A stretch of 64,000 nt of DNA from a virus. Positions 46,046 through 59,973 of the stretch are shown here, piece by piece; positions within the stretch are counted from its first letter, which is position 1; each line of letters begins with the position of its first letter. The position numbers and the translations under genes were made by a program. The stretch lies in the IMG/VR virus record IMGVR_UViG_3300042898_000852, positions 1 to 64,000 of that record. One strand, 5' to 3'. The notes below the pieces were generated by a model. It was not told the origin of the DNA and ran no database searches. It saw only the letters and a program-made list of their open reading frames with translations.

Positions 46046-46482
46046 AGATTCTTTTTTCTAACAGAGTTGATATCAATAACGCCAGTATTTACAGCGCCAC
46101 CAAAATCACCATCAACTACTACATTAGCACACAGTTCACGGAACCAACGATCCACAATTTCTTCGTCTTTGTCACCGTCAAAACCATATCCCTCTTGCTT
46201 TAATTTTAACACAAAAAGCTCGTTCCAGTCAAGCTCAAAAAAGCCATTACGTATGTTATCTTTGTTGATGTGTGTATTAAGCACCCCTACCCACGGTTCT
46301 TTCAATTTGGTTGCTCGATCTTTTGGACTTAGTTTGGCAGTTTCTTCTGCTTCTACAGCACGTTCTGCAGATGCAACTGCGTCTTTAGCAATCTTTGTGG
46401 ATTCTTCAGCCAACTGTACTGCTGCTGCTGTTTCGGCCTTGAGTTTATCAATGCCAAATAATTTTTCTACAAATCGTCTCAT
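46042..46482 (-). CDS. Conserved phage hypothetical protein with coiled-coil N-terminus
   Basis: 146 residues from ATG 46482, which overlaps the QueE stop as TGATG. Residues 10-55 form an Ala/Glu/Lys helix (TAAAVQLAEESTKIAKDAVA, SAERAVEAEETAKLSPKDRA). The folded C-terminal part has KEPWVGVLNTHINKDNIRNG, FFELDWNELFVLKLKQEGYG, FDGDKDEEIVDRWFRELCAN. From memory this combination is a recurrent small protein in cyanophage genomes. The DWNE/FDGDKDEEIVDRWFR pattern might serve a binding role; function unknown. Confidence 0.62.
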   Translation of the reverse strand: MRRFVEKLFGIDKLKAETAAAVQLAEESTKIAKDAVASAERAVEAEETAKLSPKDRATKLKEPWVGVLNTHINKDNIRNGFFELDWNELFVLKLKQEGYGFDGDKDEEIVDRWFRELCANVVVDGDFGGAVNTGVIDINSVRKKNL

Positions 46483-47327
46483 CAAGTACCCCACTCATTT
46501 TTAAATAACGGCACTTGTAATCTATCACTATAACGCCATCCACGTTTCATAGCTGCCAGTGCCACATTCTTTGCGTTGAGTGTATAAACACTTTCCACAC
46601 CACCAACTGGCATTAGATAAACATGCCCGTTAAATCCAGCATTACGGAATGCACCCACAGCACATTCAGCATCTGAAATATCCTGCTCTGTTGCAACAAC
46701 AAATTTAAGATAAACTGTTCCTACTTGTTCATACTCACACACAATTTCTGGACAGATAGCTTCCTCCCACTTCTCTCCACTTGCTGGAAGTTTAGCACTT
46801 ACACTGAATGTAAGTTCTTTATTATCTGTCCATTCAATTAGATATTCTTTAAATTTAGGATCAAGTTTTTGAGTACCATTTGTTTCAAAAGTAATCTCTT
46901 GCAAGTCACGCATCTTAGGATGATCTAGTAGATCTGGATAAGCACGTTGCCACCCTAACAATGGTTCGCCGCCTGTAATAACTAAGTGTTCGTCAATCCA
47001 ATGATCCTGCGGAAGCATTTCCATAATTCGATCTACAATAGCTTCGCTAGTAAGCATAGGCGACAAATCTTTAAAGCGTGGATCCCAACTAGCATAGCTG
47101 TCACAGCCTGTGCTAACAAGTGGCAAATCTTTATAATCCTTGTAAGGAATATTGTCGTGAGCAAAAGCAATAGTTTCAACTTCTGTACTTATTTCACCCC
47201 GCGGCATACCGAAGCCTGCACATTTAAAGTTACAGCCGAAGGTTCTAAGGAACACACTGGGCACCCCCATATATCTACCCTCGCCCTGTATAGAGTAGAA
47301 AAGTTCCGCTATTTTAATCTTGCTCAT
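46482..47327 (-). CDS. queE: 7-carboxy-7-deazaguanine synthase QueE (radical SAM)
   Basis: Converts 6-carboxytetrahydropterin to 7-carboxy-7-deazaguanine, a precursor of preQ0. 281 residues from ATG 47327. The start SKIKIAELFYSIQGEGRYMG is diagnostic of QueE (IQGEG). LRTFGCNFKCAGFGMPRGE gives C32 and C36, but the third cysteine of CX3CX2C is Phe39; STGCDSYASWDPRF supplies C75 as a likely replacement. LVITGGEPLLGWQ is the SAM-binding motif, and ITFETNGTQ is typical of the family. The gene starts within the end of the MazG-like fusion gene. FolE, a QueD-like and a DpdA-like gene lie in the same block. Confidence 0.9.
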   Translation of the reverse strand: MSKIKIAELFYSIQGEGRYMGVPSVFLRTFGCNFKCAGFGMPRGEISTEVETIAFAHDNIPYKDYKDLPLVSTGCDSYASWDPRFKDLSPMLTSEAIVDRIMEMLPQDHWIDEHLVITGGEPLLGWQRAYPDLLDHPKMRDLQEITFETNGTQKLDPKFKEYLIEWTDNKELTFSVSAKLPASGEKWEEAICPEIVCEYEQVGTVYLKFVVATEQDISDAECAVGAFRNAGFNGHVYLMPVGGVESVYTLNAKNVALAAMKRGWRYSDRLQVPLFKNEWGT

Positions 47328-47781
47328 GCTCAACCCCACTTTTAAATATATTTGACCATTTTTTTAATTTGGCAATTTTGTTACCTGCTGCCGCAAGCAC
47401 TTCCTCTTTATCTACTATATTATGATCAATACAAAGATCGATCATGGCCTGTAAATCTCCTAGTTCTTCTGCTAGATGTTGTCTGTTAGTAAGTGGCTTA
47501 CCGGGTTTGACATTATCTAAACCGAATCGACTTATCTTGCTGATAGCAACAATTACTTCTGCACATTCCTCTTGAGTAATGTCTAGGATTTCTTTTTCTT
47601 TATTATTCATATTACTAGTATACACTCTTTTTGTCAAAGACCAAGAGCCATTTTGATTATCTTTCCAGTCTAATACATCACCTTCTTTCCAACCTGTTTC
47701 TTCGATCATATCTTCAGGGAATGGTAGTATCAAGTCACCGGTTTCGGGATCGTCTTGTAGTTCAATTGTCCAATTTTTCAA
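47314..47781 (-). CDS. Fusion of an AbrB-like small domain and a MazG-like nucleotide pyrophosphohydrolase
   Basis: 155 residues from a TTG start at 47781, chosen because AGGAG (47788-47792) is six bases upstream and the conserved-looking sequence KNWTIELQDDPETGDLILPF begins there; earlier codons overlap the dCMP deaminase gene. Residues 1-55 (EETGWKEGDVLDWKDNQNGSW) resemble an AbrB/SpoVT-type beta domain. Residues 58-155 look like a MazG-like helical fold (ITQEECAEVIVAISKISRFG, HLAEELGDLQAMIDLCIDHN; ExxE and ELGD metal motifs), which would hydrolyse NTPs or dNTPs. The two halves meet at an internal Met (47610) with no ribosome-binding site, so a true fusion is likelier than two genes. Confidence 0.7.
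   Translation of the reverse strand: MKNWTIELQDDPETGDLILPFPEDMIEETGWKEGDVLDWKDNQNGSWSLTKRVYTSNMNNKEKEILDITQEECAEVIVAISKISRFGLDNVKPGKPLTNRQHLAEELGDLQAMIDLCIDHNIVDKEEVLAAAGNKIAKLKKWSNIFKSGVEHEQD
47609..47637 (-). promoter_or_regulatory. Internal sigma70-like promoter candidate
   Basis: On the minus strand TTGACA (47632-47637, perfect consensus) is followed after 17 bases by TAATAT (47609-47614). It lies exactly at the junction of the two domains of the fusion gene and would transcribe toward QueE. It may be fortuitous in AT-rich coding DNA. Confidence 0.4.
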
Positions 47782-48655: not shown

Positions 48656-48833
48656 CAACTAATACTTTTCTAAACCTATGTGTAAAACTTTCTTTTAGGC
48701 ACGAATATTCGAGATTGTCTCGGAGACGCATATAGTGTACCCAAGTTTGATTTCCTATATCAACTACATAAATTACTCGAAAATATTCTCGAGCCCCTGC
48801 TTCCCACACTTCGCCATTACTAACTTCTTGCAT
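48642..48833 (-). CDS. Small hypothetical protein
   Basis: 63 residues from ATG 48833, chosen because AAAGGG lies six bases upstream; ATG 48863 would overlap the preceding gene by 44 bases. It is beta-rich (EVWEAGAREYFRVIYVVDIG, NQTWVHYMRLRDNLEYSC) with a basic end. The 'yfrViyV....nWV.Y.rlrd..e.sC....F..RFr' flow resembles small phage domains of unknown function. Confidence 0.55.
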   Translation of the reverse strand: MQEVSNGEVWEAGAREYFRVIYVVDIGNQTWVHYMRLRDNLEYSCLKESFTHRFRKVLVDERR

Positions 48834-49287
48834 TTTTAGCCCTTTCAGATAGATATGTTTCATTATGAATCCACCTGTTATTTACTAAAAATCCCCATTC
48901 ACGCTTTTGCGGCCCTGGCATAAACATAGTCCAGGCAGTCACACTAGGATCAAGCTCAATACGATGATAGCTGTTAGCCCTACATACACGAAAATGGCCG
49001 GGTCCTCGCCATTTACATATCTCATTAAATTTACGACCCTGTTCGTCAAATTGAGGAATCCATTCATAATATCCACCTTTAAGTATTAGTGTTGCGTATG
49101 GCCAAGGATGATCATGAACATCATCTGGATCTGATTTAAGAAATTTATGAATAAAAACATTAAACGGAAACCAATCTCTATCTTTTAGAAAAACGTAATA
49201 TCTTTCAAGATATGGCTGATCGTTCACACGATCCATTATGATTCTTTTACGTTCTAATCGTTCTAAAAAATCGAGAAACCATTTCAT
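48820..49287 (-). CDS. Cupin-like conserved phage protein
   Basis: 155 residues. A cupin-type metal motif is visible: SDPDDVHDHPWPYATLILKG (H-D-H), followed by GYYEWIP and, later, the second-motif-like ANSYHRIELDP and AWTMFMPGPQKREWGFL. Proteins of this plan ('DpDD.HDHPW.y.tLIL.GgY.E') are common in phages and bacteria and may be dioxygenase- or isomerase-like, but no reaction is assigned. Overlaps its upstream neighbour by ATGA and its downstream neighbour by 14 bases. Confidence 0.68.
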   Translation of the reverse strand: MKWFLDFLERLERKRIIMDRVNDQPYLERYYVFLKDRDWFPFNVFIHKFLKSDPDDVHDHPWPYATLILKGGYYEWIPQFDEQGRKFNEICKWRGPGHFRVCRANSYHRIELDPSVTAWTMFMPGPQKREWGFLVNNRWIHNETYLSERAKNARS

Positions 49288-50011: not shown

Positions 50012-50125
50012 TTAGAGTTCCATAATAAAATATTTCGATGCAGGATATTGCGTCTGCAACCATTCTAACAGGCCTTCTTCAACTGGCAAACGAACGCTGT
50101 CAAATTTGTTAGTAATGTATCTCAT
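50012..50125 (-). CDS. 37-residue micro-protein coupled to FolE
   Basis: A short frame filling the 111-base gap between FolE and the next gene. Its ATG (50125) overlaps the FolE stop as ATGA, and it ends one base before the spacing that precedes the following ATG. The translation is MRYITNKFDSVRLPVEEGLL, then EWLQTQYPASKYFIMEL; this looks protein-like, with an amphipathic helix and a hydrophobic end. The perfect fit between neighbours and the coupled start argue that it is a real gene. Function unknown. Confidence 0.6.
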   Translation of the reverse strand: MRYITNKFDSVRLPVEEGLLEWLQTQYPASKYFIMEL

Positions 50126-50868
50126 CGCGGTGCAAACTCCTGTTGTAGTTTAATATTGTCAAAGAATTCTTTCTTTGTATGTGGATCATCTTTAAATGAA
50201 CCTTTCAATACAGTAGTCTGTGTTAGACTTGAGTGTGCCATGATGCCGCGATTCTCACAACAGCCATGAACTGCCTGCACGTAGACTGCTACGTTTTCTG
50301 ATTCGGTTGCTTTGCTGATTTCGCGGGCGATGTCGTTGCACAATTCTTCTTGTAATGTTCCACGACGAGCACACCACTGTGCTATTCTGGTATACTTTGA
50401 GAGACCAATAAGTTTATTAGCGGCAATGATACCGATGTAGGCAACCCCAGAAACAGGCTGGTGGTGATGAGAACACATACTTCGTAGCTCACTACGTACC
50501 ACAAGCATACCCTCGTAACGGTCGGCGCTGTCATTTGGAAAAGCTGTTGCATCTGGTGCCGGATCATATCTACCTGCCATTACTTCGTTAAAATACATTT
50601 TAGCAAGACGTCTTGCGGTACCTTTACTATTGGGATCGGTTTCGCGATCAATAAGTAATTTATCAAGCACTTGTTCAAATGCAGGTGTTGCTTCGTCAAT
50701 TAGTTTCTCTAGATCACCTTGCCAAAGGTATTCACTAATATTGTCACCGGCCCAAAATCTTTTACCATCACGTTTCATTTTAAAGCGAATATGGTCGCCT
50801 AGGTAAGCTTCTGAATATCCGCCATCGCCTGCCATTGCGTCTAGGCCTGTTTCTGTTTTATCTGTCAA
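50122..50868 (-). CDS. folE: GTP cyclohydrolase I (FolE)
   Basis: Opens GTP to 7,8-dihydroneopterin triphosphate, the first step of both folate and 7-deazaguanine synthesis. 248 residues. The zinc ligands are visible: SMCSHHHQPVSG (C132, H135) and HGCCENRGI (C203). LLIDRETDPNSKGTARRLAK and IGLSKYTRIAQWCARR are family hallmarks. The start is TTG at 50868 with GGAG eight bases upstream; an in-frame stop lies just before, so no ATG is possible. Coupled to a micro-gene by ATGA. With QueD-like, QueE and DpdA-like genes in the same block it is best explained by deazaguanine synthesis. Confidence 0.93.
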   Translation of the reverse strand: MTDKTETGLDAMAGDGGYSEAYLGDHIRFKMKRDGKRFWAGDNISEYLWQGDLEKLIDEATPAFEQVLDKLLIDRETDPNSKGTARRLAKMYFNEVMAGRYDPAPDATAFPNDSADRYEGMLVVRSELRSMCSHHHQPVSGVAYIGIIAANKLIGLSKYTRIAQWCARRGTLQEELCNDIAREISKATESENVAVYVQAVHGCCENRGIMAHSSLTQTTVLKGSFKDDPHTKKEFFDNIKLQQEFAPR

Positions 50869-50908: not shown

Positions 50909-52009
50909 TTATTTTAACATCTTTAATAGTTGAGTGCAACTAAAAAAGTTTTCTTTCAGTATATCTACTTGTTTATTTAGGCTAGGCAAGAATTTTTCGT
51001 AATTATTCATGTATTGAATAATCTTATTACAAATATCAGGTCTGTGTGCCTCGTATGCACTATAGCTTTCAGTCCATTCGCTAGGATATTTAAATGTATC
51101 TAATGCCATTTCGCTGTAGCTTAGTCTATCGGGAACCATAGGAATCGCATCTACAATAGCACCTTCATACCAACTGATGCCAAGCGTTTCTTGTAGGTTA
51201 GCACTGAATATCAGTTTAGCTTCTCCTAACAAATTGTGATATTCATTTTTGGTCAACTGTTGATCTTGACAAACAACAAATTCATATTGCGGCAACTGAT
51301 GTTTTAGATCACGGAAAATTTCTACCTGCTTCTCAGGAGCAATTCGATGTGGGAACAAGATAAGATCACGCTTGGGCATACCTTTGTACATTGCTAATGT
51401 ATCCTGCATATACTCCATGGGCCAACCTGTGCGTACAAACTTAGGATACTCGCCTGCAAGTATTTCTTTAAGTTCTTCTTCGTACCAAGGATTTTCTACA
51501 GAATGCCCATTGTTCAACAGTTCTCTATTAAACATTTCTATATGAAAGTCAGTGGCAAAGTAGTTGTGATCAAAGGCTGAAAAGAATGATTTCTCTGCAT
51601 TACGCACCCAAGGCTTATTACCAACAAGTCTGCCTAGAAAGTCTTGAGGATCATAACTGCCAGCATGCCACAAGCCATGTGTAACAACTGGAATGCCCAG
51701 CAGTTCACTCATGTACTTGAGATTGATGATGCCAGGGTGCCAAGCATCAGTAAATAAGAAGTGATCATTGGCGCGAATGCTTCCGTCGCAAAATAACCGA
51801 CCCATCTGCTCAACTTGACTAGCCTTGTAGATATTAGTGCCGCCAAAGTTGAGAAATGCCCCAGGAGTGGTAGCACTAGGAATATCCGTAGGACCTGATA
51901 TAATGTTGACATTGTGTCCTGCCTTTCGTAGGAGGGTAGGTACATGAGTCTTCCATTGACCAGTGTACCTTGTCTCGACTGCTTCTAGATCAACGAGAAA
52001 AACTGTCAT
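50909..52009 (-). CDS. GT-B fold glycosyltransferase-like protein
   Basis: 366 residues from ATG 52009; upstream codons are a frame-shadow of the neighbouring gene. It begins TVFLVDLEAVETRYTGQWKT, HVPTLLRKAGHNVNIISGP, an N-terminal Rossmann-like pattern. The C-terminal half shows GT4-family features: LFPHRIAPEKQVEIFRDLKH (R..pEKq), FVVCQDQQLT and LIFSANLQETLGISWYEGAI with the E-x7-E-like nucleotide-sugar site. It would transfer a sugar from a nucleotide sugar to an unknown acceptor; DNA, virion proteins or host polysaccharide are possible. It lies between FolE and the QueD-like gene. Confidence 0.7.
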   Translation of the reverse strand: MTVFLVDLEAVETRYTGQWKTHVPTLLRKAGHNVNIISGPTDIPSATTPGAFLNFGGTNIYKASQVEQMGRLFCDGSIRANDHFLFTDAWHPGIINLKYMSELLGIPVVTHGLWHAGSYDPQDFLGRLVGNKPWVRNAEKSFFSAFDHNYFATDFHIEMFNRELLNNGHSVENPWYEEELKEILAGEYPKFVRTGWPMEYMQDTLAMYKGMPKRDLILFPHRIAPEKQVEIFRDLKHQLPQYEFVVCQDQQLTKNEYHNLLGEAKLIFSANLQETLGISWYEGAIVDAIPMVPDRLSYSEMALDTFKYPSEWTESYSAYEAHRPDICNKIIQYMNNYEKFLPSLNKQVDILKENFFSCTQLLKMLK

Positions 52010-52279: not shown

Positions 52280-52669
52280 TTAATACTTAATAAATGAACC
52301 ATTTTCTCCGTCTTCGGAGACCTCAATCCAAACCTCACGGTTGGGATACTTTTTGGAGATAGCGTCATATAAATCACCTGACATCATCTCACAACTCTTG
52401 TAGTCTAACGCTAGTATACTATCTTTATAAAGATTTAGCAACCATCGTTTGAACTGAATAAACTCAATATCGCGATCATCGTGTGTTACACCTATCCAAA
52501 CTTTAAAGTGGAAGATATGGCGATGCGGATAGCCTAGAAAACTTACATCATACTCGTCACCTGTAGCAAGATTAGCGTCTGTAAGTGCGGCTGGATATTT
52601 GTGCATACCTTCTTTGTTAAAGGTAACCCAAATCATTTTGTTTGGTCGAATGTCTTGTTTAATAATCAT
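52280..52669 (-). CDS. QueD-like / 6-pyruvoyltetrahydropterin synthase-family protein
   Basis: 129 residues, the usual size of QueD. Landmarks align in order with the PTPS fold: VTFNKEGMHKYP (zinc ligand H23, like F.F.AAHR), YPHRHIFHFKVWI (H49, H51, like LHGHSF.V), DRDIEFIQFKRWL (like V.DF..lK), YKSCEMMSGDLYDAI (like PTsE.la..i) and IEVSEDGENGSFIKY (like v.v.Et...). The catalytic Cys that normally sits a few residues before HxH is not there. The expected product would be 6-carboxytetrahydropterin, the substrate of QueE. Moderately sure; the ATG overlaps the upstream stop by ATGA. Confidence 0.55.
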   Translation of the reverse strand: MIIKQDIRPNKMIWVTFNKEGMHKYPAALTDANLATGDEYDVSFLGYPHRHIFHFKVWIGVTHDDRDIEFIQFKRWLLNLYKDSILALDYKSCEMMSGDLYDAISKKYPNREVWIEVSEDGENGSFIKY

Positions 52670-52893: not shown

Positions 52894-53252
52894 CTCAAAC
52901 TCTCCATAGTGATAATTTTTGCTAGCTCTTCACCTAGGTCTTTATCGTCTGTGACCACGTGCAGACTGTGTCTATGATCGTCCTTTTGACGATCATACTT
53001 GGTTGTTTCAATAATAGTTCCACCACCAGCACTGTAAACATTTAATCTAAACCCTTGTGACTGAATGTTTGGCCCTTCACTGTCAACGCTGATAACATTT
53101 CCACTGTAATCGGCACTATCATCCATTATCCAGTTTCGAATTCTTTGTTTAAATGTTAGTTTCATAGGTTTATTTGTCATGTATGATCTGGTCATTGATT
53201 TCTGCAATCGATTAACGGACTTAGCAGTCGAGGCATACGGGTTTGTTGCCAT
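52890..53252 (-). CDS. Conserved phage hypothetical protein
   Basis: 120 residues. The first 30 are basic, with several Met codons (22-30), so the true start may be the internal MTNKP or MKLTF; the rest, KLTFKQRIRNWIMDDSADYS, VISVDSEGPNIQSQGFRLNV, GGTIIETTKYDRQKDDHRHS and DKDLGEELAKIITMESLR, forms one beta-rich domain with a helical end. From memory this block is widespread in cyanophage-type genomes. Function unknown. Overlaps its neighbours by one and four bases. Confidence 0.6.
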   Translation of the reverse strand: MATNPYASTAKSVNRLQKSMTRSYMTNKPMKLTFKQRIRNWIMDDSADYSGNVISVDSEGPNIQSQGFRLNVYSAGGGTIIETTKYDRQKDDHRHSLHVVTDDKDLGEELAKIITMESLR

Positions 53253-53785
53253 TATTTGATAATCTCATCTTTGCCATATTGATCCCAACTAGTAAACTTA
53301 TTTCTATCTAGTAGGTCATGGAGGTTATGGCACCACACTCCGGGATTAGTTGCTTTAAAATCTTTGTCGTCTATCTTTATTGTAGCATTATATCCCAGCT
53401 GTTGTAAATAGGGCAGTTTAACCGAAATCTGTGGAATGAACTGACGCTTCTCAACCAGACCGCTTTCAAGAAGTCCTTCTACTTGTGCTAGATCTAGATC
53501 TAGTGTACACCAAAATTCATCATCGGCATCTAGACAAACATAGATCATATTTTCCCAAAGACGCCATTGATCTGCATCGTTGAATTTTAGATTAGGAAAA
53601 CTTTGATTAGCACCAAAGTAGATGTGAGTACATCTATGGTTGCGAGCAAGTTCCATGATCATATACTCGTCGTGTACACCTGTTACAAACAAAGTTTTCA
53701 TTCCGTAAGCAGGAGTCTTTTCGATCTCGATTCCTGTAAAGAATGTGATGCTGTCTGCAACACCTGATTCGTAATTTCTTTTCAT
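53252..53785 (-). CDS. Conserved phage hypothetical protein
   Basis: 177 residues. It starts KRNYESGVADSITFFTGIEI, with EIEKTPAYGMKTLFVTGVHD next and CTHIYFGANQSFPNLKF near residue 55, then DADDEFWCTLDLDLAQVEGL. The 'KTlFVtGv' strand followed by 'i...a....CtHiyfGANqSFp' resembles a Rossmann-like half; a conserved WCHNLHDLL segment is near the end. From memory it travels in phages with deazaguanine genes, but I cannot assign a reaction. Confidence 0.6.
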   Translation of the reverse strand: MKRNYESGVADSITFFTGIEIEKTPAYGMKTLFVTGVHDEYMIMELARNHRCTHIYFGANQSFPNLKFNDADQWRLWENMIYVCLDADDEFWCTLDLDLAQVEGLLESGLVEKRQFIPQISVKLPYLQQLGYNATIKIDDKDFKATNPGVWCHNLHDLLDRNKFTSWDQYGKDEIIK

Positions 53786-54601: not shown

Positions 54602-56137
54602 TTATTCAGCTACAAGTTTATCCAATTCACCATCTTCACGATCGTCGTTCCATGAGTCTTTATCTTCGCTGCCTTCTTCGTAGAACAGGTCATTAGAGAT
54701 ATTTGTAACACCACCACGTAGGCGTGAGCCTTCCAAATTCTGCATAAAGCCTCTGGTCTCTGCATCAGCAATCATTTCAAATGCAGATTCTTTGTTAGGA
54801 CAATTAAACAGTTCTTCAACAAAGCGATCAAAGTACAAGATGTTGCGTGGAACCCAATCACTGTACTCATCACTCATATCACGATCTTTGTTTTTCTTCC
54901 ACATTCTCCAGTCAGGTCGAATCTTAGCTTGTTCAATATCTGCCAAGTTGTTAGCACGTTGTACAGCAACAATGTGTTGATAGACATTATGTCCCATCAT
55001 TAGTGCATAACCGAAGCTATCCCACGATGTTTTGCCTTCTTTACCGATCTTGTTTAACATTCCTGGCTTGTAATGACACACATCTGAAACATTAAGTCTA
55101 CGTCCAATTTCGCTTTCGAACGGAAACGGAATGTCTGGACGTGATGCAAGTGCTTTGTTATCTGGGGCCTTGTCCATAATAACACTCCAACGCTTGGCTG
55201 TATGCTGACTGTTAGTATAGACCAGTCCGTGTGCAGTTGCAATAAACGGTGATGCACAGTCAAAGCTGATGGTAAAGTTAGGATTGACGTGTTTACGGAT
55301 CTGACGTTGAATACTGGTCAAGTAGCATGACCAATCTAACTGTGCAGTACCCAAGAAGTGCATCCAATCCTTGCCTTCTAACATACCGTCGAAGCGCATA
55401 GTGATCAATCGGCGAAGAGTAATATGCATCTTGCACATGTTAGCACCGCCCATCGCCCAACCTTCGGCGGCTTTATCGCCCCAGACAGTCTTGTCACTGA
55501 ACTCTTTAACGCCTTCATACCATGCTTCAGCAGTATCCCAGTTACTGCCCTGTAGAACGTTTAAGAACTTAGTAGCACCTAAACGATTTTCTAAGAAGTA
55601 CTTGTTGTTGTGACGAGTTTTTTCTAGACAGTCTTCAAAAGACTTCAATCCAGTCTTTGGGGAGTGAATATGATCGCAGGCCCAAGTCGGAACGTCAAGC
55701 ATCATTGACCAGTCAGCAGTTAATTCAAGCCAGTTAAGAATATCATCTCGAGTTTTGTTAGCTGCTTTACCTTCAAAGTCTAGCCAATCAAACTTAAGAA
55801 TACCTTTACCAATCTGATAACCGCCAGAGTCACCCAAGATCATTGTCTTGCTACGATCACGTTGTTGAATCATTGAATCATGATCCATTGTTTTAGTAAG
55901 ATCTAATTGTGCGTGACCTGCTGAATACAAACCATACTTGTAATAAAAGTATCCTTGCTCCGGGTTTAAAAAGTTCATACCTTCAATGCCACGATCAAAT
56001 CCTTTAGGAATACGATCTTTAGGTACGAACTCTTCCTTACGTTGTTTTGCAATGTAAGTGCTGTAGAAACTACTGATTGCAGGCAAATAGACTGCGTAGT
56101 CTTTCTGTAGGGGTGTTAAATCAACTGGTTGTTTCAT
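54602..56137 (-). CDS. dpdA: TGT-superfamily DNA-guanine transglycosylase candidate (DpdA-like)
   Basis: Tentatively an enzyme that exchanges guanine in DNA for a 7-deazaguanine base. The 511-residue protein shows the TGT motif series in order: MILGDSGGYQIGKG (DSGGYQ 103-108, base-binding Asp), MMLDVPTW (D148), LNVLQGSNW (QG 196-197), GWAMGGANM (GG 230-231), MHFLGTAQLDW and TISFDCASPF (D293, matching the TGT nucleophile). The zinc-binding C-x-C-x2-C/H site of tRNA enzymes is not visible, as in DpdA proteins. The acidic tail (470-511) is an extension. FolE, QueE and a QueD-like gene in the same block supply the substrate. Confidence 0.68.
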   Translation of the reverse strand: MKQPVDLTPLQKDYAVYLPAISSFYSTYIAKQRKEEFVPKDRIPKGFDRGIEGMNFLNPEQGYFYYKYGLYSAGHAQLDLTKTMDHDSMIQQRDRSKTMILGDSGGYQIGKGILKFDWLDFEGKAANKTRDDILNWLELTADWSMMLDVPTWACDHIHSPKTGLKSFEDCLEKTRHNNKYFLENRLGATKFLNVLQGSNWDTAEAWYEGVKEFSDKTVWGDKAAEGWAMGGANMCKMHITLRRLITMRFDGMLEGKDWMHFLGTAQLDWSCYLTSIQRQIRKHVNPNFTISFDCASPFIATAHGLVYTNSQHTAKRWSVIMDKAPDNKALASRPDIPFPFESEIGRRLNVSDVCHYKPGMLNKIGKEGKTSWDSFGYALMMGHNVYQHIVAVQRANNLADIEQAKIRPDWRMWKKNKDRDMSDEYSDWVPRNILYFDRFVEELFNCPNKESAFEMIADAETRGFMQNLEGSRLRGGVTNISNDLFYEEGSEDKDSWNDDREDGELDKLVAE

Positions 56138-56506: not shown

Positions 56507-57244
56507 TTAGGCCGCCTGTGCTGGAATGATATATTTGTAAGTAGCAAGTCCGCTGTCCAAAGTAATCTGAATAGCACCTTCATTGCTCAAGGACATCTTT
56601 GTGTTGTTGACATCTGCAATCTTGAGAATACTCAAGATTGGTAGCACTGGCCAAGTCCAACCACGATCTAATTTACCAGTAATGCCCATGGCAAATATAA
56701 ACTCTCCGCCGTGTGTTGAAGCATCGCCAAAGATAAATTTCAATTTATCACCATCAGTCTTTGCCAAGAATGTTGGATGTTCGTTGTTAGCACCTGCTTG
56801 AAAGTTGAAACGTTGCACAGCACTAACTGTGGGTTCAACCTCCACGTCCCACTTAACACCTCGAAACTTAACTGTTTTCATTTTTTCATTAATGATCTCA
56901 GTATTCATAAAACGATAATCGTTTTTAAAATCGCCATCTTTGTTTTCAAAGTGTAGACCAGTTGGAATTGTTTCGCCATTGCGATCTGCGGTAGTGATAC
57001 TAATCTTGGCATTTTCTTTGTACTCAGCACCGTCTAACAAATATTTTAATTTGTTTAGTTGCGGCATACCAAATACACCCATCATATCTGGATACGGTGC
57101 ATTAGTTTCAGCTTCCATAATCACTGAACGGTCCTCAGCCATTGAATTGATCACGGTTTTATTTTGATCGCCGGTGACTTTAACTGTGGTTAAAAAGCCT
57201 AGGTTCTGTGTGTGCGATACGATATCTTGTAAAATGTCTTTCAT
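56507..57244 (-). CDS. Sliding-clamp-like protein (putative gp45 analogue)
   Basis: 245 residues. The plan recalls a T4-type processivity clamp: a first beta-alpha domain (LGFLTTVKVTGDQNKTVINS, then GVFGMPQLNKLKYLLDG), a linking segment, and a second domain ending ALATYKYIIP-like (DSGLATYKYIIPAQAA). The location next to gp43 and its own early-type promoter agree. Overall identity with T4 gp45 (228 residues) is not visible by eye, so another role cannot be excluded. If real, it would tether gp43 to DNA and, with gp55, activate late promoters. Confidence 0.42.
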   Translation of the reverse strand: MKDILQDIVSHTQNLGFLTTVKVTGDQNKTVINSMAEDRSVIMEAETNAPYPDMMGVFGMPQLNKLKYLLDGAEYKENAKISITTADRNGETIPTGLHFENKDGDFKNDYRFMNTEIINEKMKTVKFRGVKWDVEVEPTVSAVQRFNFQAGANNEHPTFLAKTDGDKLKFIFGDASTHGGEFIFAMGITGKLDRGWTWPVLPILSILKIADVNNTKMSLSNEGAIQITLDSGLATYKYIIPAQAA

Positions 57245-57303: not shown

Positions 57304-59973
57304 TTACTCAAAGTCAAACAATTTTGCAAATGTGTTATCACTGCGAGTTGAACTGATATCCCATTCCAAGACACCAATCAAGTTTTCTAGCTTTTCATCG
57401 ATGACTGCGTTTTCCATTTCAGCATCGTTGAAGGGCAAGTCTTTGAACCATTGAGGTAATCTCAGTTCATCTACCGGATAGGCCACTGATGTATACCCCA
57501 TTGGATTATCTTTGACCTTGCAGACAATGACTTTAGCACCGTCTGTAATGGCTACAGAGTATTTGTCATCCATCATACGTTTCAAAGTATTCCAGTTAAG
57601 ACTTGCTCGAACGTGTCCGGGCATGTTAGTCTTACCTGCTTTCTTTTCTTTGTCGCGATATTGAGAAATGTTATTGGCACGTTTTGGACTACCCTTCTCC
57701 CAACCCGGTCTAGTTTTAAATTCAGTGCGGAAGTTAGTGATATATTCTAACACTTCCTCCTTACCTGCACCGTTGAGCACTTTAGTAAGTACTTCACTAA
57801 GAAAATCTTGAATTACTACAGGAGTATCAGATCTTTTTAAATCAAGTCCCATTGCTTTGATTTTTCCAGGAGTACCCCCAGTGTCTGTTCTTTTTCCTTC
57901 TTTGTCGTAATAAAGGACTGCATATCTCTTCTTGGTGATGAATAGTCCTTTGGAAGCAACAATCTCGCGACCTGCTTTGATGACCTCTCCTCGAGACTTC
58001 GGGCAGTGAAAAGCATCTTGCATAAATTTTGGGAAAGTTCCATTGACAGTTTCTCCTATAGTATCATAAAGTTCAACAACTGATTCCTTACTCCAAGGAA
58101 TTGCTCCTTTCTCAATGTCCTTCTTTAACGTAGCATACGCTGAGAAGTAACAAGAGTCTGTGTCACCGTAAATGATTGCTTTGCCTATATGATCATTTTC
58201 TCCGGTGATAATTTCGTTTACTTTACCTGCCATGTGACGAGCAATGGCACGCCCTGTAAGTGTAGTCGACTGTCCAATTCGATTGTCAAAGAAACGGCAA
58301 CCTGGATTCAAAATAGCACCATACAGGCTGTTCAAGTTAATTTTCTTGACCAACTGACGTTTGTCCCAATATTCTTCTTCAATTTTATTACCGGCTGCAA
58401 TACAATCCTTTAACTTAGCCTGCATGTCTTTACGTTCAGCATACCACCGCTTGAGTAGTCCTGGAATGATACCTTCTTTCTCATAGGTAAAGATTGTACC
58501 GTTTGCTGAAAGCATCCAAGGCTGATTACTTTCAAAGATTAGATCATAGGCCTGTGCTGCACTTAGTGTATCTACTCCTCCATCTTCCCAATCAATAGTA
58601 ATTTCTCTTCCAACATTTCGTTCTAACACAGCGGAATATTCTAGTGAACCAAATACGCCTTCCCATGCTGATGCAAATGATTTACCTTTAGCAATTTCGG
58701 CAGCAATATAATCTTTAGTACCATCTTGACGCAGTTGTCCTACAATAGTTTCCGGACCCATGTTCAACGCTCTAATTGCAGAGGGATACAATGAATTAAT
58801 GTCTAATGAGCCAATCCACTCGTGAATGCCTTTTTTGGGATAAGCAACATAAGCACCAGCGGCTTGATTACTAAATCCTTCCTCTCGACTTATTCTATTA
58901 GGAACAATCATTCCGCGTTTGTGAGCTTCGTTGATAATGGCCTGCTCTGTAACAGCCACCGCACCCATTGTTGTTTGAAGTAGCACAGTACATTCATGAG
59001 CCAGTGTGTTAGCAAGGGCTAAGAACTTTAATTTCTTGTCCAACTTTTCCAATAGCATACAGTCTTGTCTATTGTATTCGATAAATCTACGGAAGTCATT
59101 GTTGTACAATTGATCAAGTGTGCCTTCGTAGACAGTTTTATTTTCTCCAATCTCCATCTCACCGATAGCATCTAATCGATATGTATGACGTTCTTCATAT
59201 GTGTATTTTCGATATAGTTCGAGACTGTCTAAGTGTACACGACCTATAAGATCATATGTAACCGCAGCCTTGCCATACTTTTCGTATTCACGTTTCTTGG
59301 GGAATTGATTCCATAAACAAAAACGTCTTGTATCTTCTTTACTGAGCACTTTGGTAACACGATTAACTGTATAAGGAATATCAAAGCCTTCTGAGTTCCA
59401 ACCACTCAGTACATCCGCATCTTGTATTAAATCCAAGAACATGTCTAACATATCTGCTTCGTTATCAAACAAATAAGTGTTAGGAAATTCTTCGACCTGC
59501 TTCTTAGCTTCTTCCATACTCAACGTTTTGGGCGGAATTGCCAAACAGATCATGGTCTGCATCCATTGTAGGTAGACAGCAATGGCAGTGATTGGCATAA
59601 ATGCATCTTCTGGTGATGCATAGCCACGTTCTGGATCAAAGTCTACCTCAATGTCAAAGAACGCTATGTTTAATTTTGGTGCGTCTTGATTGAGATAATG
59701 ATCTTCCAGGCAACGATATATGGGATTGATATCACTTTCAAACAGTTTTTTGTTTGAATGAATTGCAAGTTCTTTGCGATGTTCTTTGACATTTTTGGAA
59801 CTCACTCTTGAAAGAGGTTGTCCAAAAATACTTGTGAATTTACCCTTGGCGTCTGGGTAATAAAATATATGACGGGCAGGGTATTCTTTGTAATGCCGTT
59901 CGCCTTTATCATTGCGCTCAACAACATTGATGATATCCTGCTCTCGATTATAGAAAGCGTCTACGTAACTCAA
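57304..59973 (-). CDS. 43: DNA polymerase gp43 (family B)
   Basis: The replicative polymerase, 889 residues (T4: 898). Exonuclease motifs: AFFDIEVDF (D107, E109), NSEGFDIPYTV and EYNRQDCMLLE. Polymerase motifs: DINSLYPSAI (motif A, about 390), KKINLNSLYGAIL (motif B, about 545), IIYGDTDSCYFS (motif C, about 602) and the FITKKRYAVLY block. The C-terminus keeps a short hydrophobic-acidic peptide (NTFAKLFDFE), like the clamp-binding tail of T4 gp43. The start codon is TTG at 59973, with AGGAG seven bases upstream; the next in-frame ATG is far inside the exonuclease domain. Downstream of the DsbA-like and membrane protein genes. Confidence 0.96.
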   Translation of the reverse strand: MSYVDAFYNREQDIINVVERNDKGERHYKEYPARHIFYYPDAKGKFTSIFGQPLSRVSSKNVKEHRKELAIHSNKKLFESDINPIYRCLEDHYLNQDAPKLNIAFFDIEVDFDPERGYASPEDAFMPITAIAVYLQWMQTMICLAIPPKTLSMEEAKKQVEEFPNTYLFDNEADMLDMFLDLIQDADVLSGWNSEGFDIPYTVNRVTKVLSKEDTRRFCLWNQFPKKREYEKYGKAAVTYDLIGRVHLDSLELYRKYTYEERHTYRLDAIGEMEIGENKTVYEGTLDQLYNNDFRRFIEYNRQDCMLLEKLDKKLKFLALANTLAHECTVLLQTTMGAVAVTEQAIINEAHKRGMIVPNRISREEGFSNQAAGAYVAYPKKGIHEWIGSLDINSLYPSAIRALNMGPETIVGQLRQDGTKDYIAAEIAKGKSFASAWEGVFGSLEYSAVLERNVGREITIDWEDGGVDTLSAAQAYDLIFESNQPWMLSANGTIFTYEKEGIIPGLLKRWYAERKDMQAKLKDCIAAGNKIEEEYWDKRQLVKKINLNSLYGAILNPGCRFFDNRIGQSTTLTGRAIARHMAGKVNEIITGENDHIGKAIIYGDTDSCYFSAYATLKKDIEKGAIPWSKESVVELYDTIGETVNGTFPKFMQDAFHCPKSRGEVIKAGREIVASKGLFITKKRYAVLYYDKEGKRTDTGGTPGKIKAMGLDLKRSDTPVVIQDFLSEVLTKVLNGAGKEEVLEYITNFRTEFKTRPGWEKGSPKRANNISQYRDKEKKAGKTNMPGHVRASLNWNTLKRMMDDKYSVAITDGAKVIVCKVKDNPMGYTSVAYPVDELRLPQWFKDLPFNDAEMENAVIDEKLENLIGVLEWDISSTRSDNTFAKLFDFE

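Follow-up and report, generated by a model that had tools for sequence, protein, structure and literature searches.

A probable DpdA-type DNA guanine transglycosylase, separate from DpdA2 and linked to QueC-free 7-deazaguanine genes in phages

What is the function of a phage protein that carries the motif series of tRNA-guanine transglycosylases (TGT) but lacks their zinc site? The question is raised by an open reading frame in a stretch of 64,000 nucleotides (the window), positions 1 to 64,000 of the 77,936-base IMG/VR virus record IMGVR_UViG_3300042898_000852. The record covers part of the genome of a T4-like phage and includes a family B polymerase as well as tail and baseplate genes. The reading frame is real: it lies on the minus strand, begins with ATG, encodes 511 amino acids, and its start overlaps the upstream reading frame by a few bases in an operon-like manner. 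An earlier note on this DNA had interpreted the product as a divergent DpdA, and this is still the best reading, as a TGT-barrel fold is predicted and the profile match to DpdA2 lies well above shuffled controls. With high probability the protein is a DpdA-type DNA guanine transglycosylase of a clade apart from DpdA2, which would insert a QueC-independent 7-deazaguanine that is possibly glycosylated afterwards. The gene and its motifs are as follows:

54602..56137, minus strand: predicted DpdA-like DNA guanine transglycosylase, 511 aa (AlphaFold2 model with Foldseek matches to TGT, hhalign to DpdA2, tree)
55814..55831, minus strand: DSGGYQ, residues 103-108, with D103 as predicted catalytic Asp, compare DSGGFQ of TGT (D-S-G-G-x-Q invariant in 34 homologues)
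55694..55696, minus strand: D148, the FDE/LD position of TGT (invariant in 34 homologues)
55547..55552, minus strand: Q196-G197, QG motif of TGT (G197 invariant; in register with DpdA2)
55445..55450, minus strand: G230-G231, GG motif of TGT (in register with DpdA2)
55349..55360, minus strand: HFLG, residues 260-263, the H-x-L-G common to DpdA2 (H260, L262 and G263 invariant; HxLG invariant in DpdA2)
55259..55261, minus strand: D293 in FDC, predicted nucleophile, compare FDC of TGT (invariant in 34 homologues)

The order DSGGYQ (103-108), D148 (in MLDVP), QG (196-197), GG (230-231) and D293 (in FDC), in which the earlier note had recognized the TGT series, was borne out. D103, S104, G105, G106, Q108, D148, G197, H260, L262, G263 and D293 are invariant across 34 diverse homologues; in the same alignment H383 and H388 are invariant and C354 is nearly so. 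The ordered series was found in 174 of 187 family members and, among the 14,103 open reading frames of all fetched loci, elsewhere only in four DpdA2 genes, which is well above chance. No model of the Pfam, PHROG and NCBIfam scans matches the protein, and the proposed profile check against PF01702 (TGT) was run and returned no match. A profile search of PDB sequences gave a chance RNase match only.

Structure prediction, likewise proposed beforehand, yielded a TGT (beta/alpha) barrel. The AlphaFold2 model, based on a 34-row homologue alignment, has a mean pLDDT of 87.9 and a pTM of 0.88, and disorder is confined to the last ~40 residues. In Foldseek, the best 38 PDB matches are all TGT (E 3e-8 to 6e-4, probability 1.00; 38 of 38 matches at E < 1e-3) with moderate TM-scores (0.42/0.54); the first match of another fold, to an unrelated radical SAM enzyme, follows at E 4e-3. 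In the model, D103, D148, Q196, G230 and D293 are located at or just past the C-terminal ends of the predicted strands 99-103, 143-145, 190-195, 226-229 and 289-294, which is where the active site of the barrel lies. Invariance and strand-end placement together suggest that the two catalytic Asp residues are situated on the active face of the barrel. Following the ping-pong chemistry of TGT, D293 would attack C1' of deoxyguanosine in phage DNA, releasing guanine, and D103 would act as general acid/base while the incoming 7-deazaguanine base is joined. The likeness to bacterial TGT (E. coli Tgt, Z. mobilis 1pud) comprises the barrel fold, the two catalytic Asp and the QG and GG motifs, whereas the phage protein has lost the zinc site, contains insertions and an acidic tail and is missed by PF01702.

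The closest described relative appears to be DpdA2, defined from Vibrio phage nt-1, whose DNA contains dPreQ0, dADG and dG+ (PMC6884629). By BLAST, no link was found between the window protein and nt-1 DpdA2. Alignment of the family profile to DpdA2 by hhalign resulted in a probability of 94.6, an E-value of 7e-8 and a score of 67.6, compared with at most 26.9 for 20 column-shuffled DpdA2 alignments and 15.6 for the reversed one, and the DSGG, LD, QG, HxLG and F/YD blocks are in register. Moreover, the family profile alone is sufficient to detect DpdA2 in phage ACP17 (E 4e-4). The hhalign match to E. coli Tgt is weak (probability 23, E 9e-4), and the DpdA of Enterobacteria phage 9g did not match by profile (E 0.57). 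The homology to the DpdA2 group of nt-1, a phage with 7-deazaguanine DNA, would make the protein a DpdA in the broad sense.

A branch with 100/98 support at both labels separates the family from DpdA2 in the tree; deeper joins are unsure owing to long branches. The protein also has no PHROG match to phrog_10773 (DpdA2) and lies outside the DpdA2 clade. In this comparison with DpdA2, a clade of its own is supported. The DpdA2 proteins of Vibrio phages nt-1 and KVP40 (phrog_10773) share with the family the order DSGGxQ, FDE/LD, QG, HxLG, Y/FD without CxCxxC; both phages are large myophages with FolE and QueE, and four of seven DpdA2 proteins have C-terminal ends of the LFE/LFG/FFD type. In contrast, identity over the aligned part is 17%, single-sequence BLAST links the two only weakly via Vibrio phage 2.275.O, and the clades are separate.

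The earlier note was also right that the zinc site is missing, CxCxxC being present in 0 of 187 family members. It had regarded this loss as the expected shape of a DNA-directed relative. CxCxxC is present in E. coli Tgt and also absent from seven DpdA2 proteins and from 9g DpdA, but Xanthomonas phage PhiXhv-12 has a 573-aa open reading frame that is detected with the family profile as well as with the DpdA2 profile, matches the family by hhalign at E 1e-10 and keeps CTCPIC. The absence thus stands, whereas its use as proof of DNA targeting is ruled out by this related enzyme: the zinc site varies in its presence between phage enzymes, so that loss by itself is no mark of DNA targeting.

Members of the family are present in 13 of 50,697 phage records, every copy annotated as hypothetical. 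Eleven of these records are PA5oct-like Pseudomonas phages, and the other two are Sinorhizobium phage Phosso and Vibrio phage 2.275.O. IMG/VR contains relatives at 592 places at least, and none of bacterial origin was found in the genome collection. Viral scans with single PA5oct or 2.275.O proteins as query found nothing, unlike alignment queries, which recovered the family. A putative function is offered for an abundant aquatic phage gene family missed by Pfam, PHROGs and NCBIfam.

The genes around the reading frame bear on its substrate:

57304..59973, minus strand: family B DNA polymerase, C-terminus NTFAKLFDFE (phrog_262, E 2e-197)
56507..57244, minus strand: probable sliding clamp (phrog_12062; 2.275.O homologue matches phrog_223, Phosso homologue annotated sliding clamp)
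53252..53785, minus strand: 177-aa protein without assigned function, a conserved neighbour of dpdA (147 of 162 loci)
52280..52669, minus strand: small protein of predicted QueD fold, 129 aa (phrog_17812), with three His retained but without the catalytic Cys (AlphaFold2, Foldseek, 89 of 91 loci)
50909..52009, minus strand: GT4-like glycosyltransferase, 366 aa, ATG at 52009 (homologues beside dpdA or folE/queE in PA5oct, ACP17, X1, Phosso)
50122..50868, minus strand: FolE, GTP cyclohydrolase I (phrog_2197, E 5e-44; NCBIfam FolE below cut-off)
46482..47339, minus strand: QueE, 7-carboxy-7-deazaguanine synthase (phrog_2076, E 2e-51; TIGR03365 below cut-off)

The polymerase and the probable clamp genes are upstream of the dpdA-like gene, and polymerase, clamp-like gene, 177-aa protein, 129-aa protein, glycosyltransferase and FolE recur across 162 loci. 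The product of 56507-57244 is taken as a probable clamp from a PHROG bridge, the 2.275.O homologue matching phrog_223 (DNA polymerase processivity factor) at E 6.7e-5; hhalign to nt-1 gp45 gave no support. Polymerase, clamp, DpdA and FolE are found in matching order in phage 9g, whose DpdA is likewise a phage DNA transglycosylase adjoining polymerase, clamp and FolE but differs in its length of 317 aa and in having no profile match to the family. The 177-aa protein has no family match; in ACP17 a weak homologue (29%) directly precedes the DpdA2 gene. Between FolE and QueE, a cupin-like gene (cysteine dioxygenase PHROG) is located at 48820-49287 and recurs in 77 of 162 loci. In the QueE of the window, CNFKC is followed some tens of residues on by GCDSYASW, as if the CX3CX2C radical SAM motif had been split by an insertion; a similarly split-looking motif is seen in Aeromonas phage Ahp1 (L202:6292-7197).

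Deazaguanine synthesis genes are linked to the dpdA-like gene, as expected of a DpdA in the broad sense. In the 91 loci whose downstream flank measures 6 kb or more, the gene for the divergent 129-aa QueD-fold protein lies shortly downstream in 89, the glycosyltransferase likewise in 89, FolE in 83, QueE in 75, QueD in 6 and QueC in 0. In whole records, QueE was found in 23 of 23 searched and FolE in 22 of 23 (19 of the 23 carry the family). This neighbourhood bears on the idea that the enzyme is a phage tRNA-guanine transglycosylase that modifies tRNA of the host or of the phage in the course of infection. It does have the fold and the catalytic residues of TGT, but the profile is nearer to DpdA2 than to E. 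coli Tgt, the zinc site is absent from 187 of 187 members, the 64-kb window contains no tRNA genes, the neighbours (polymerase, probable clamp and deazaguanine genes) are those seen with phage DpdA, and the tail carries a polymerase-like motif described below. Modification of tRNA is thus very improbable, and we infer DNA as the substrate.

Which base would be inserted? Phage FolE and QueE, with QueD from phage or host, would supply 7-carboxy-7-deazaguanine (CDG). PF06508 (QueC) is absent from the searched records carrying the family, except for 2.275.O (full length) and one IMG/VR record (partial match), and the search performed as expected on its controls (12 of 14 known genomes, nt-1, 2.275.O). 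The nt-1 QueC and QueD as queries gave no match in the record of the window, a 78-kb fragment whose own missing QueD and QueC therefore prove little. In place of a phage QueC step from CDG to preQ0, the 129-aa protein is a candidate to act on CDG. Its AlphaFold2 model (pLDDT 92.6) has E. coli QueD (4ntk) as best Foldseek match (E 2.5e-4, probability 1.00), and H23, H49 and H51 are invariant, consistent with a QueD T-fold with three zinc-type His. The catalytic Cys and DHxxL of QueD are not retained as such, the Cys position being L45 and DH appearing as DY, DF, DG, DH or NH. The protein is taken as QueD-fold from its predicted fold and not from hhalign, which was not significant against QueD (score 21.8, shuffles up to 19.6). 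Copies of phrog_17812 in Phosso, PA5oct, ACP17, X1 and BUCT-ZZ01 are 36-70% identical, and 26 phage records encode the protein.

The QueD-fold gene and full-length QueC were found to be mutually exclusive in 18 of 18 named phages compared. PA5oct, Phosso, ACP17, X1, ZZ01, phiST, Ahp1, RHph_I1_18, Bakedbeans, D479 and MA9V-3 (n = 11) have the former without the latter, with a sub-threshold QueC match in X1 and a 69-position partial match in D479. QueC without the QueD-fold gene was found in nt-1, KVP40, pf16, Moby, 2.275.O, 9g and PhiXhv-12 (n = 7), the match in Moby being partial in a gene annotated QueC. On the DpdA2 side, nt-1, KVP40, pf16 and Moby thus differ from the family by having QueC and neither the QueD-fold nor the glycosyltransferase gene. 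The 9g pathway also includes a QueC-type protein and yields dG+ (PMC6884629). These data argue against an enzyme working just like DpdA2 and inserting preQ0 made with host QueC. Such a role would agree with the homology to DpdA2, the shared motifs and the co-occurrence of the family with QueC and QueF in 2.275.O, where the dpdA-like gene is near QueF, a COG1738 transporter, QueC and FolE. It is nevertheless unlikely in view of the separate clade (100/98), the presence of FolE and QueE with QueC missing, and the exclusion among the 18 phages.

A named subfamily might already cover the family. Cui and colleagues (2023) reportedly predict a CDG decarboxylase and name DpdA3 and DpdA4, and the family might equal DpdA3 or another of their subfamilies. 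We consider this rather improbable on indirect evidence: the short TGT-like proteins encoded next to the QueD-fold gene in Cellulophaga phage phiST and similar phages match the family poorly (E 7e-4 at best), and a search of the whole phiST genome with a profile found nothing. The preferred reading is a QueC-independent base inserted by a separate DpdA clade. The general idea of a deazaguanine system is not new, as a deazaguanine synthesis/incorporation system was predicted for PA5oct in 2021 (PMC7824862). PA5oct encodes a family member (44% identity) together with FolE, QueD and QueE. The accessible part of that paper does not specify the gene and mentions neither the glycosyltransferase nor the QueD-fold partner nor the QueC absence (PMC7824862). 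No earlier account of the separate clade, of the mutual exclusion with QueC, of the two partners (QueD-fold protein and glycosyltransferase) or of the tail motif was found in the accessible literature.

The linked glycosyltransferase may decorate the inserted base. PF00534/PF13524 matches are weak and occur in the PA5oct and ACP17 copies. Homologues are present in 19 records, with identities of 50% in Phosso, 38-40% in PA5oct-like phages, 35% in ACP17, 25% in X1 and 28% in four PhiXhv/Ep032 phages. A DpdA-type protein accompanies it in Phosso, ACP17, X1, PhiXhv-12 and all eleven PA5oct-like records; of the four PhiXhv/Ep032 phages, this comparison covered PhiXhv-12. That the enzyme accompanies transglycosylases of more than one type points to a common task. 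The genes that follow dpdA in 2.275.O and in Phosso, the latter annotated as a primase, were considered and are not the glycosyltransferase. In PhiXhv-12 (L199:6669-9903), a QueC-domain open reading frame (annotated glutamine amidotransferase), a PIG-L-like deacetylase and the same glycosyltransferase family lie in a row, which suggests an amino-sugar step tied to the deazaguanine base.

Modified guanine is predicted in the DNA of cultured phages, e.g., PA5oct, Paride and Phosso. From the absence of QueC in the gene set, this base would differ from preQ0, and from the glycosyltransferase it may carry a sugar. Going further, QueC-free CDG might be reworked by the QueD-fold protein, a DpdA tethered to the clamp might insert the product behind the replication fork, and the GT4-like enzyme might then glycosylate it in DNA, so that a 7-deazaguanine with a sugar results; as a complete, undescribed hypermodification pathway this is put forward tentatively and is, as a whole, doubtful.

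The tethering would be provided by the tail:

54605..54727, minus strand: disordered acidic C-terminal tail, residues 471-511 (pLDDT mostly < 50; D/E content)
54677..54703, minus strand: NISNDLFYE, clamp-binding-like peptide, residues 479-487 (family tail motif)

An acidic tail, as the earlier note had described, is present (31% Asp/Glu in the last 45 residues), and such tails are general in the family. The note had taken length and tail as possible marks of a subgroup; the subgroup agrees with the separate clade (100/98), but the tail itself looks more like a linker bearing a clamp-binding-like peptide than like a simple subgroup mark. Within the final 70 residues, 22 of 33 family members have F-x-x-[LF]-F-[DEYG] (shuffled tails: mean 0.4, maximum 3). 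The window copy, NISNDLFYE, starts with I and is a weak version fitting the relaxed motif only. The motif also ends the DNA polymerases of these phages, NTFAKLFDFE in the window, and T4-type polymerases bind the clamp via such a C-terminal peptide. Polymerase end and dpdA-like tail read VFGSLFDFE and TFGGLFEVEE at locus L149, ALQAFFEF and VLNEFFEF at L120, and NNTDLFDW and NNNDLFGW in 2.275.O; in ACP17 the polymerase has SLDDLFE and DpdA2 TTLDELFE. The agreement in L/F between polymerase and tail has a Fisher p of 0.008, uncorrected for relatedness and confounded by shared ancestry. The tail is probably a sliding-clamp tether, a disordered linker whose peptide would bring the enzyme to newly made DNA, which suggests a way for enzymes of this kind to be directed to DNA and not to tRNA.

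Finally, phrog_10773 (DpdA2), phrog_17812 (QueD-fold partner) and phrog_12062 (probable clamp), all labelled "unknown function", could be renamed. Short proteins (260-290 aa; phrog_20335 and relatives) are encoded near a QueD-fold gene at L201:16813-17592, L206:7818-8612, L202:9450-10322 and L205:7683-8540. They display the TGT-like blocks LDNGAGD, IPLD, PQG, HFLGAGE and STDS and may represent another, shorter type of phage transglycosylase.
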